Shown here: positions 1 to 50,300 of the stretch, one piece after another
Layout of the letters: each line of letters begins with the position of its first letter
Position numbering within the stretch: position 1 is the stretch's first letter
Source: Sporosarcina ureae
GTDB lineage: Bacteria; Bacillota; Bacilli; Bacillales_A; Planococcaceae
NCBI RefSeq assembly: GCF_002109325.1
Contig: NZ_CP015348.1
Span: 1,962,501 to 2,026,500 of the forward strand
DNA length: 64,000 nt
Direction of reading: 5' to 3'
The notes under the pieces: model-generated
What the model was told of the DNA's origin: nothing
Database searches by the model: none
What the model saw: only the letters and a program-made list of their open reading frames with translations
Made by a program: the position numbers and the translations under genes

Positions 1-1472
<1,472 letters not shown>

Positions 1473-1547
1473 ATTTTAAAAAGTAGTTACTTGAACTACG
1501 CCAATGTCTTTTATTCAGTTTTGAGTGAACAAGCTTTACTCAAAGAG

Positions 1548-1663
<116 letters not shown>

Positions 1664-1670
1664 ACGCGAA

Positions 1671-1697
1671 GCCATTCCCTTTGGGGAGTGGCTTTTT
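1671..1697 (+). terminator. Rho-independent terminator of the rRNA operon
   Basis: GCCATTCCC and GGGAGTGGC form a hairpin with one wobble pair and a TTTG loop, followed by six T residues. It sits 8 nt after the 5S gene. Confidence 0.9.
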
Positions 1698-1795
1698 TGT
1701 GCTTTCAGGGAGAATTTAATCGCATTAAAGAGGAGATGATCCCGTTTAGTTATTGCGTTACCTTTTTATCCAGTATAATCAATCTTTCTCCGTGA

Positions 1796-2272
1796 GCGCT
1801 CTATCCGCTGCGTTGACCGCTCTATGGGCGTCGCTGAGTGCTCTATTCCTCGCCGTGGCCGCTCTATCTGCCGTGCTCAACGCTCTATAGCCTCTGAAAA
1901 CCGCTCATAGCCTTCATTTTCCACTATGATTATCTGTGTCGATCAATTATCTCTATAAGCGCTCTATCTACTGCGTTGACCGCTCTATTGGCATCGCTGA
2001 GTGCTCTATTGGCATCGCTGAGTGCTCTATTCCTCGCCGTGACCGCTCTATCCACCGTGCTCACCGCTCTATCATCCCCCACAACCGCTCATAGCCTTCA
2101 ATATGTAGCTAATTTCCACCAATAATTATGTGTCGATCAATCTTTCACCACAAGCGCTCTATCCGCTGCGTTAACCGCTCTATTGGCGTCGTTGAGTGCT
2201 CTATGCGTCGCCGTGACCGCTCTATCAACCACGCTCACCGCTCTATAGCCCTCCACAACTGCTCATTAGTCC
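1796..2272. repeat. Three arrays of 21-bp phased GCTCTAT repeats
   Basis: The heptamer GCTCTAT starts at 1798, 1819, 1840, 1861, 1882 (then GCTCATAG at 1903); at 1961, 1982, 2003, 2024, 2045, 2066 (then GCTCATAG at 2087); and at 2156, 2177, 2198, 2219, 2240 (then GCTCATT at 2261). Every step inside an array is exactly 21 bp. The 14 bp between heptamers differ along an array but follow the same order in all three, so there is also a higher-order repeat (163 bp, then 195 bp where one 21-mer is doubled). The spacers share GTGTCGATCAAT. In one forward frame the arrays read as A-L-x-x-x-L-x heptads but hit stops and have no start, so coding is unlikely. A second patch lies near 50.2 kb. Function unknown. 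Confidence 0.93.
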
Positions 2273-2303
2273 CCCATCGCATAAACCTTTTTAAAAAGTA
2301 GAA

Positions 2304-2333
2304 TAAAAAAACCCATGTTAGAAAAGCCCATGG
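2304..2333 (-). terminator. Weak terminator after the 76-aa gene
   Basis: Read on the minus strand, CCATG and CATGG form a 5-bp stem followed by GTTTTTTT, about 50 nt past the stop of the 76-aa gene. The short stem and long loop make it weak. Confidence 0.4.
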
Positions 2334-2381
2334 ATTAAATAATAAATACCTATTAATTTTTGTTTGCTTTGGTTTTACTAC

Positions 2382-2612
2382 TCACACAGAGTAGTAAATA
2401 TCATCTTCACTCTCGTAGCGCACAGCAATGGACTGTCCATTATCTGATTGGAACTGCAAAGCAGCGATGTCTAGTTGGCCAGTAAGAATAGAAAATGAAT
2501 GATGATCATGCTGTGTAGGTAGAAGAGAATAGTGGATAATATCATGAATAAGAGAAGACATATCTTCAAATGAAGTAAAAATATAATACTCATTAACCAT
2601 ATAAGCCGGCAT
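2382..2612 (-). CDS. Uncharacterised 76-aa protein
   Basis: I do not recognise this protein. It is 76 residues, acidic, rich in Tyr, His, Asp and Ser, with no signal peptide or membrane segment, and ends in a DDIYYSV tail. I start it at the ATG at 2612, which has AAGGAG nine bases upstream; an in-frame TTG at 2639 would put the Shine-Dalgarno sequence inside the gene. It has its own minus-strand promoter (-10 near 2725) and a folded 5' leader, and is separated from the upstream XRE gene by a terminator, so it is probably a single-gene transcript. Composition resembles a small soluble cytoplasmic protein; no function is assigned. Confidence 0.7.
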   Translation of the reverse strand: MPAYMVNEYYIFTSFEDMSSLIHDIIHYSLLPTQHDHHSFSILTGQLDIAALQFQSDNGQSIAVRYESEDDIYYSV

Positions 2613-2674
2613 ATTGCTCATCTCCTTGTAATTAGCCAAAGAACGGATCGACGGAGGGGCCGAAGCGAATAACT

Positions 2675-2720
2675 TTCAGGCTAGCAGGTACTTTGCAGCC
2701 GGCTTCAAAATGAGCCTGAA
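2675..2720 (-). promoter_or_regulatory. Folded 5' leader of the 76-aa gene
   Basis: TTCAGGCT (2675-2682) and AGCCTGAA (2713-2720) form a perfect 8-bp stem around a loop containing the palindrome GCCGGC. With the -10 at 2725-2730, transcription would begin at about the first base of this stem, leaving a leader of roughly 105 nt before the ATG. It has no terminator-like T run, so it may affect stability or translation rather than attenuation. Confidence 0.45.
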
Positions 2721-2724
2721 TTAT

Positions 2725-2754
2725 ATTATATGCTTCAAATAGAATATTTGTGAA
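2725..2754 (-). promoter_or_regulatory. Sigma-A promoter of the 76-aa gene
   Basis: On the minus strand TTCACA (2749-2754) and TATAAT (2725-2730) are separated by 18 bp. The -35 differs from consensus at one base and the -10 is perfect. Confidence 0.6.
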
Positions 2755-2756
2755 TA

Positions 2757-2793
2757 TAAAAATCATTCTACCGTTATTATAAAGTAGAATGAT
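2757..2793 (-). terminator. Terminator of the XRE regulator gene
   Basis: On the minus strand ATCATTCTAC and GTAGAATGAT make a perfect 10-bp stem (2762-2793) followed directly by TTTTTA. It ends the XRE gene and separates it from the 76-aa gene. Confidence 0.75.
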
Positions 2794-2841
2794 AGAAATT
2801 ACTATTGAGTATTGTTAATTTATTGAAAAAGGGTAATTAGA

Positions 2842-3225
2842 TTATTTTCTCAAACTAAACATAGTTTGCATGAAGGCCAACAGTGCATTTTTATCTGCGT
2901 CAGATAAGTCTATTCCGTTAAAAGATACTTGTCCGCGTAAAATATTCTCAAGAGCAAGATCTTTAGGTTGTCTCTTGTTTTTTGAAGAAGAGATGGCTTG
3001 ATCTACTGTTTCGTTAGGTAAGTAACCTGCCAATATTAGTAACTCGTTTTTATCCGTCTCTAACGCAGCTGCCAATGCACAAATCGTTTCACGAGAAGGA
3101 TTGTATCTACCTTTCTCCAGTGAAGCAATGAAAGAGTAGCTCAAGTCAGCGCGATCTGCCAAATAACGTAAAGTCATTTCACGTTGTTCACGTAATTTCC
3201 GTAGACGATTTCCAAACTCGTTCAA
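2842..3225 (-). CDS. XRE-family transcriptional regulator
   Basis: A 127-residue DNA-binding protein with an N-terminal helix-turn-helix of the XRE/Cro type (about residues 4-60: RLRKLREQREMTLRYLADRA then SYSFIASLEKGRYNPSRETI). The C-terminal half is a short, mostly helical region of unknown role, perhaps for dimerisation. I start at the TTG at 3225, which has AAGGTGG eight bases upstream; the in-frame GTG at 3237 overlaps that ribosome-binding site. It reads away from the exopolysaccharide island, 800 bp from its first gene, so it could control the island, itself, or neither; the sequence does not decide this. Confidence 0.88.
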   Translation of the reverse strand: MNEFGNRLRKLREQREMTLRYLADRADLSYSFIASLEKGRYNPSRETICALAAALETDKNELLILAGYLPNETVDQAISSSKNKRQPKDLALENILRGQVSFNGIDLSDADKNALLAFMQTMFSLRK

Positions 3226-3277
3226 TAATATCCCCACCTTATCTATCTACAGTTTTTAGTAAAAAGTATGCATTACT

Positions 3278-3306
3278 ATTATAGCCTATTTATATAAAGA
3301 TAAACA
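3278..3306 (-). promoter_or_regulatory. Probable promoter of the XRE gene
   Basis: On the minus strand there is a perfect TATAAT (3278-3283) with a weak -35 TGTTTA (3301-3306) 17 bp upstream, about 55 bp before the start codon. Confidence 0.45.
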
Positions 3307-3610
3307 GAACAAAGTCAAAAGTCTAATAGGTAAAAAGACTATTTTATTAAAAAAATTACACTATTCAAATAAACCTTCGATAGATCTCGTCTGATGATAG
3401 CTTAGATAAATATAGTTAAAGCGGATACAGCACTGTATTTGAATTTTTGCCTATATAGTTATTTTACTTTATTGAGTGGTGAACTTCTATACTCCATATC
3501 CCTTAGTTTTTAAATAGTTTACTTTCTATATGTATTTTTAACGAGCCTACAAAGAAACTCATGTATTAAAAATTCATTTTATTACGCGATAGAATTATCT
3601 GACAAATGTG

Positions 3611-3639
3611 TTGACAAAAAGAACAAAAGGGCATAATAT
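3611..3639 (+). promoter_or_regulatory. Strong sigma-A promoter facing the island
   Basis: A perfect TTGACA (3611-3616), a 17-bp spacer and TAATAT (3634-3639). It is the best promoter between the XRE gene and the island and points toward the island, so it may drive the whole operon with a leader of about 390 nt, or a separate small RNA. Confidence 0.65.
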
Positions 3640-4037
3640 GTGTTGTAAGGCTAAACAAAAAGTTTTTTTGCTCTCTTTGTTTAGAAAAACAACACAAAAT
3701 AATTCTTGATATAGAAAGGGGAGTAGAAGGGGTTCCGATGTATACGGCTACCCACATTATATATTCCACAGTTTACCTTTGCATCTGCTTACGTTTATCT
3801 TGTGTAGCATTTTAGCTTTTGTATTAGTTTGCTGGACAGTAATTATAAGGATGATTGTAGTGATAGGCGATAGTAAAAACATACGTAACGAAAAGCAGTA
3901 GAACTTTTATGTAGTCAGCGAACAGGTCTGAACTTCTTATTAACACAGGTCGTTCGGAATACTTAGTGTAATCTTTGTACTTTATACTAACAAATTTGAC
4001 TAAAAATGTGGTGACACAGAAAGTGCAGGTGTTGAGA
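3640..4037 (+). promoter_or_regulatory. Long leader with hairpins before the exopolysaccharide genes
   Basis: Directly after the promoter a long imperfect hairpin can form: GTGTTGT (3640-3646) with ACAACAC (3689-3695), and inside it CTAAACAAA (3651-3659) with TTTGTTTAG (3676-3684). A smaller stem pairs CGAAC (3919-3923) with GTTCG (3952-3956). No known riboswitch consensus is visible; I looked for the cyclic-di-GMP classes and did not find their conserved core. A 25-codon frame (3738-3815, AAGGGG upstream) is present but not convincing. From 3307 to 3610 I see only AT-rich sequence with no gene. Confidence 0.4.
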
Positions 4038-50096: not shown

Positions 50097-50300
50097 ATAG
50101 AGCGATGTTCGACTTTCGGGCTGAACTCTTTATCGAAGGCTTCCGAATTACTGATAACAGTCGGGCGCTCATTAATTCCTGCAACTGCTCATAGTTCATA
50201 GTTAGCCGCTCTATGGCGCCCGACTTCCGCTCTATCTACATGCGCGAGTGCTCTATCGTACTCCCTAAGCGATCATAAACACTGTGCAACCGCTCTAAGG
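50097..50300. repeat. Second patch of 21-bp phased GCTCTAT repeats
   Basis: GCTCAT at 50167 and 50187, GCTCTAT at 50208, 50229 and 50250, a degenerate GATCATA at 50271 and GCTCTAA at 50292. From 50187 on each step is exactly 21 bp. One inverted copy (ATAGAGCG) lies at 50097. The inter-heptamer sequences end in GAGT or AACC as in the arrays near 2 kb. More decayed than that locus. No gene lies between 50024 and 50387. Confidence 0.8.

Follow-up and report, generated by a model that had tools for sequence, protein, structure and literature searches.

REP and BIME elements are seated at the ends of transcription units, and the direct repeats of iterons and plasmid centromere-like sites are spaced by multiples of the helical turn, so that proteins can bind them cooperatively. 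A REP is an imperfect palindrome 20-40 bp long, and REPs alternate in orientation within BIMEs; BIME-2 elements bind gyrase in vivo (PMC6379681). The extended gyrase motif of Escherichia coli spans about 130 bp, with a GC rhythm of ~10.5-10.75 bp and a non-periodic centre of 36 bp at the cleavage site; gyrase sites are enriched in BIME-2 and after rRNA and other active operons (PMC6379681). The STAR elements of Staphylococcus aureus repeat a GC-rich word of 14 bp, T(G/A/T)TGTTG(G/T)GGCCC(C/A), in 1-7 copies separated by spacers of at least 40 bp (PMC3532100).

The arrays described here resemble each of these systems in part. Like REP and BIME elements they are intergenic, present in many copies and located at transcription-unit ends. 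They differ in that each element consists of seven direct, non-palindromic words set a constant two turns apart; with all words on one strand and RNA folding at chance, we do not place them in that family. Their spacing at helical-turn multiples recalls iterons and centromere-like repeats, but those occupy one locus by a rep or par gene, whereas the arrays occupy about 40 chromosomal loci after unrelated genes. With STAR elements they share intergenic direct repeats of a conserved word, spacers that vary by locus or lineage and a variable copy number (PMC3532100). However, STAR elements have no reported helical pitch, whereas the arrays hold a fixed 21-bp step, a word of 6-7 bp, sizes centred on seven and species-specific words; a family with the word GCTCTAT and an insert of 14 bp is not a STAR family. 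The length of ~130 bp and the ~10.5-bp rhythm agree with the gyrase motif, but that motif is highly degenerate and lacks a strict repeated word. We found no description of these arrays in the open-access literature, which is not proof of novelty.

Results and discussion

Four arrays in the window

The window, the whole 64-kb stretch of DNA analysed, carries four arrays of 7, 8, 7 and 7 words. Three follow an rRNA operon; the fourth lies between a malic enzyme gene, with its terminator, upstream and a manganese efflux pump gene.

1548-1663, + strand: 5S rRNA, final gene of the upstream rRNA operon (Rfam RF00001, 98.9 bits)
1668-1704, + strand: rRNA-operon intrinsic terminator, located ahead of the arrays (terminator scan)
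1777-1909, + strand: array 1, AATCAAT, five GCTCTAT and GCTCATA; seven words, step 21
1941-2093, + strand: array 2, GATCAAT, six GCTCTAT and GCTCATA; eight words, step 20, then 21
2135-2267, + strand: array 3, GATCAAT, five GCTCTAT and GCTCATT; seven words, step 21
50167-50298, + strand: array 4, GCTCATT, GCTCATA, three GCTCTAT, GATCATA and GCTCTAA; seven words

The T-run of the rRNA-operon terminator begins 84 bp ahead of array 1. The initial annotation of this DNA had reported three arrays with sixteen GCTCTAT words between them, each array ending in a GCTCAT variant and none deviating internally from 21 bp. Sixteen words (5 + 6 + 5) were indeed found across 1777-2267 at exact 21-bp steps, and no pair at that spacing arose in 100 shuffles. 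Arrays 1-3 each end in GCTCATA or GCTCATT, as reported, and each opens with a further variant, AATCAAT or GATCAAT; counting these first and last words gives complete sizes of 7, 8 and 7. The eight-word array 2 corresponds to seven words plus one exact duplicate of a 21-mer (GCTCTATTGGCATCGCTGAGT, at 1982/2003). The 21-bp rule holds between GCTCTAT words, but array 2 opens with a step of 20 bp from its variant word to the first GCTCTAT. In array 4, too, the first step is 20 bp and the rest are 21 bp. DSM 2281 and P17a carry an array at the position corresponding to array 4.

The order of the 21-mers was said to be kept between arrays, and this extends beyond the window: rRNA arrays located at 30 kb and at 1.939, 1.964 and 2.050 Mb resemble each other. 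The emphasis on the rRNA operon did not survive, since the rRNA site is only one of about 40 sites fetched, and adjacency to rRNA genes does not define the arrays. An HTH protein is encoded beside them (2842-3237); it has an ordinary Xre-type domain, and nothing ties it to the arrays.

A genome-wide family with a preferred size of seven

A search of the whole genome and of related Planococcaceae, as suggested in the initial annotation, revealed 232 GCTCTATN14GCTCTAT pairs in the source genome (presumably strain P32a, 3,382,744 bp; 157 forward, 75 reverse) and arrays with differing words in relatives. The reversed word at the same spacing gave no match in the whole source genome. A sample of 468 kb, made up of stretches picked by the strict word, contains 217 of the 232 pairs; within it, the distance from one GCTCTAT to the next was 21 bp in 217 cases, 22 bp in one and 20 bp in none. 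When the variants GCTCAAT, GCTCATA and GATCATA were admitted and at least four words were required, 54 chains were obtained at step 21 and none at any step of 14-20 or 22-35.

For counts of array size, steps of 20-22 bp were permitted because the shorter word form GCTCAT often precedes a 20-bp step. Of the 55 P32a arrays, 43 contained exactly seven words, a span of about 133 bp; the other 12 had different sizes, some strongly expanded. Seven was also the commonest size in related strains (63/106) and in P17a (18/31), where stretches were selected by synteny and not by the word. Unit 1 is mostly GCTCAAT or GCTCATA and unit 7 mostly GCTCATAG, indicating that the element has defined and unlike ends. 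The words of one array are non-palindromic direct repeats on a single strand, and most loci have word and phase in common but not the insert sequence.

Long expansions, of up to 38 and 46 words in alternating 21-mers, were seen at L160 3972-4755, L165 10950-11902 and L193 1827-2338, and such very long arrays are possible strain-typing markers. At 1.042 Mb of P32a (L185 3741-4617), four 241-bp super-repeats each hold one seven-word array. Another seven-word array exists in four unlinked copies, at 0.75, 0.86, 2.45 and 2.86 Mb, which are 93-95% identical over the array and have partly common flanks. This sub-family looks like the result of dispersal within a larger mobile repeat.

L163 3966-4097, + strand: seven-word array, unlinked copy
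L183 3976-4107, + strand: seven-word array, unlinked copy
L171, - strand: seven-word array, unlinked copy
L181, - strand: seven-word array, unlinked copy

Arrays follow transcription units

With genes called by a simple hexamer model, all 41 clusters lay outside genes, except for two on which short reading frames with weak scores encroach. The array and its upstream gene had the same sense in 31 cases out of 38. When gaps no shorter than 100 bp were counted within the fetched DNA, arrays were present in 18 of the 37 convergent gaps, in 15 of the 112 tandem ones and in 1 of the 54 divergent ones. Because array content guided the choice of stretches, the absolute shares run too high, but the difference among the classes holds. 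Of the 41 clusters, 25 have a same-strand intrinsic terminator no more than 200 bp ahead of them, where the background rate is 0.05 terminators in 200 bp.

Array direction also agreed with that of replication, in 14 of the 18 convergent gaps and 12 of the 16 tandem ones. Such a bias would be expected of a polar element with a direction-dependent action on replication forks or segregation, serving for example as a weak barrier to forks or as a directional signal for segregation. However, direction follows the upstream gene too, and the two effects are poorly separable; the replication origin was placed from gene strand bias only, and the arrays are individually dispensable (see below) and spread unevenly over the genome. 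A polar replication element is thus a poor candidate.

Words are held while inserts drift

In orthologous arrays of other strains of the S. ureae group the words were largely kept, often including the word subtype at each place, while the inserts drifted. Substitutions affected 9 of 553 word positions, as compared with 163 of 938 insert positions (Fisher p about 7e-25). Because these loci were located via the word, the word rate is biased downwards; after three units per comparison were discounted for this ascertainment, the word figure became 9 of ~301, still far below that of the inserts. No codon (three-base) rhythm was found in the insert substitutions. In comparisons with a near relative, bin.75, the divergence was 12.5% at fourfold sites and 1.0% at codon positions 1+2, as against roughly 10% in inserts and roughly 1% in words. 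The inserts are therefore near neutral, and the words are held like protein-coding positions.

Sites were also compared with P17a, where they were found by their flanking genes and not by the word. An array was present at 10 of 12 syntenic sites and two were empty, showing that single arrays are dispensable. At several P17a sites the word had mostly switched along the array to GCTCAAT, and the step was still 21 bp (20 bp after some words). The identity of the word can thus shift as a set, while the pitch does not.

These comparisons bear on the strongest rival explanation, that the arrays are a selfish or neutral repeat family which arose by slippage, spread as passengers of small mobile elements and occupies post-terminator gaps as the least harmful places, its word and phase being kept by the spreading machinery rather than by host use. 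The empty P17a sites are consistent with this, as are the four nearly identical unlinked copies with their partly common flanks, the expansions to 38 and 46 units and the local 241-bp super-repeats. Against it, most loci share only word and phase, 10 of the 12 sites are common with P17a and the words are held as strictly as codon positions 1+2. Neither the preferred seven nor the A/T rhythm of the inserts (see below) is expected from slippage, and neither a target duplication nor a second element end was recognised. We consider a selfish origin unlikely, although it deserves more weight than any other alternative.

A 10.5-bp rhythm in double-stranded DNA

The main rhythm of A/T content in the arrays was 10.5 bp, with a power of 13.5, as compared with 1.6 in the flanks. 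After the bases within the inserts were shuffled, this power fell to 7.1 (sd 0.38; highest of 200, 8.4), which means that part of the rhythm resides in the inserts. Arrays of other species showed an A/T peak at 10-10.5 bp. The initial annotation had proposed that a protein binds cooperatively to words facing one side of the DNA; helically phased DNA is supported by this rhythm and by the preferred seven, and a protein may bind it cooperatively.

A site of ~133 bp with a 10.5-bp A/T rhythm matches the E. coli gyrase motif, and a position after rRNA and other transcription units matches the distribution of gyrase in E. coli (PMC6379681). By analogy, the arrays could be high-affinity sites for DNA gyrase itself, its GyrA arms wrapped on phased DNA, with no dedicated protein. 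The published motif, however, has a non-periodic centre of 36 bp, whereas the rhythm in unit 4 is as strong as in the other units of the array, so the motif is not fully fitted. Strict words that differ between close species are likewise unexplained by a conserved enzyme, and we regard this reading as improbable.

The steady sense orientation relative to the upstream gene would suit an RNA element, either a transcribed 3' end or a small RNA, bound seven-fold by an RNA-binding protein. Yet the folding energy of the arrays was at the chance level on both strands, no Rfam match to the arrays was found (only 23S and 5S rRNA exceeded the cut-off in 1300-4000), many arrays are located after the terminator and a 10.5-bp rhythm belongs to double-stranded DNA. 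An RNA element is very unlikely.

The step stays when the word changes

The degenerate word pattern matched 34 of 61 Sporosarcina genomes, some with >100 matches. Within the family, 10 genera out of 19 were hit. Reversing the pattern left counts near zero save in a few genomes, chiefly one from another genus (G100). There the reversed control TANCTNG itself occurred at 21-bp steps, with 27 and 39 matches, which suggests arrays of an unrelated word at the identical pitch. Matches outside Sporosarcina were mixed and included apparent near-perfect minisatellites (Evansella L045, Oceanobacillus L070) and simple repeats (Cyclobacteriaceae L051); these were left out of the family count.

A blind scan was made for any 6-mer repeated at a constant step of 12-50 bp in forty 20-kb stretches of other Sporosarcina, some picked near known matches and others not. 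It returned 23 arrays, with steps of 20 bp (10), 21 bp (10), 41 bp (two, being 20 + 21) and 15 bp (one), while Markov surrogates and 50 kb of E. coli yielded none. The sole array at another step (L277 12128-12253, genome G014) is a 15-bp repeat within a gene, apparently a His-rich motif. In a second set of stretches, drawn from the wider family, six intergenic arrays were detected, of which five have step 21 and one has step 20. Two checks raised in the initial annotation, whether the phase is kept while inserts drift and whether the period drifts freely in relatives, are thereby answered: the two-turn step is held, with steps almost only of 20, 21 and 41 bp, while inserts and even the word differ.

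The species-specific words were TGATCATAAA, GCTGATA, CGCATAAA, GATCGATA, GGTCCATTC, CGCTCAAT and GGTCTATGAGCG, and some other species have arrays after rRNA operons too, each with its own word. At L335 13648-16378 (genome G088, of another genus), arrays of GAGTGACGCAAGTTTGG, TTGCAATTAG and CTTTAG lie within 3 kb, with steps of 21, 20 and 21 bp. GGGAAAT was noticed in some arrays of other species; as it is not consistent across species, Noc- or parS-like sites were rejected.

The constant step also bears on the possibility that the arrays are decayed coding DNA for heptad repeats. Some frames do remain open across arrays, and real coding heptads can fit the degenerate pattern (L196 is IDQRFEQIDRRFEQMD). 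However, pure 20-bp arrays in relatives break every frame, which excludes heptad coding, and the arrays are intergenic with insert changes lacking a codon rhythm. The initial annotation had already disfavoured this origin, which we judge the least probable of all.

A phased element after transcription units

We propose that each array is a copy of a single intergenic element, ~133 bp of double-stranded DNA that carries seven recognition words (GCTC[T/A]AT or GCTCATA) two helical turns apart. Its exact step, preferred seven, slow word change, 10.5-bp A/T rhythm and seat after transcription units were all observed. We put the probability that it is a helically phased DNA element under selection at roughly 0.8. 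That it is bound by protein and has a role at transcription-unit ends is more tentative, its chances falling a little short of even. Somewhat less probable is a new class of element across Planococcaceae: a seven-site, 133-bp phased DNA wrap after transcription units, its word co-evolving with a dedicated putative wrapping protein. Such a wrap would amount to a particle the size of a nucleosome, fixed in its chromosomal position, or to a topological boundary. The gyrase, polar replication, RNA and coding readings, in falling order of probability, are all weaker rivals.

Positive supercoils build up ahead of RNA polymerase, hence after transcription units, and especially between convergent genes. 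In the proposed mechanism, a sequence-specific protein would occupy one DNA face at all seven words and would wrap or coat ~133 bp as a single complex. Directly after transcription units, this complex might form a topological boundary or sink and either take up positive supercoils or halt read-through, in the manner proposed for BIME-2 and gyrase sites in E. coli. The recognised word would drift among species together with its protein while the geometry stayed fixed; the species-specific words point to a dedicated protein.

Several findings tell against this proposal: individual arrays are dispensable (two of 12 P17a sites are empty), post-terminator gaps are where any repeat is best tolerated, 12 P32a arrays depart from seven, some by strong expansion, word conservation was measured on loci found by the word, and the central unit has no special site like the gyrase cleavage region. 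The preferred seven, the constant two-turn pitch under a changing word and the seat after transcription units suggest a defined nucleoprotein particle, and we know of no described bacterial example of one at fixed chromosomal places. The arrays make it possible to test directly how supercoiling and read-through between genes are managed in bacteria, and they would reveal a fast-evolving DNA recognition pair. With a common geometry and species-specific words, the putative binding protein should be findable by pull-down and checkable by word swaps between species. Even if the family is selfish, its quantised repeat size is unusual.

Methylation sites and mobile elements

A restriction or methylation site was considered and rejected, since the methylome motifs of P32a, CCAG, CAAYNNNNNGTAA and ACRGAG, differ from the word; other strains of its group have different methylation motifs (PMC5930826 Table 2). 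A phage or plasmid origin was weighed as well, and no plasmid match to the arrays was found. The triple GCTCTAT pattern is borne by six IMG/VR viral contigs (L358-L363).
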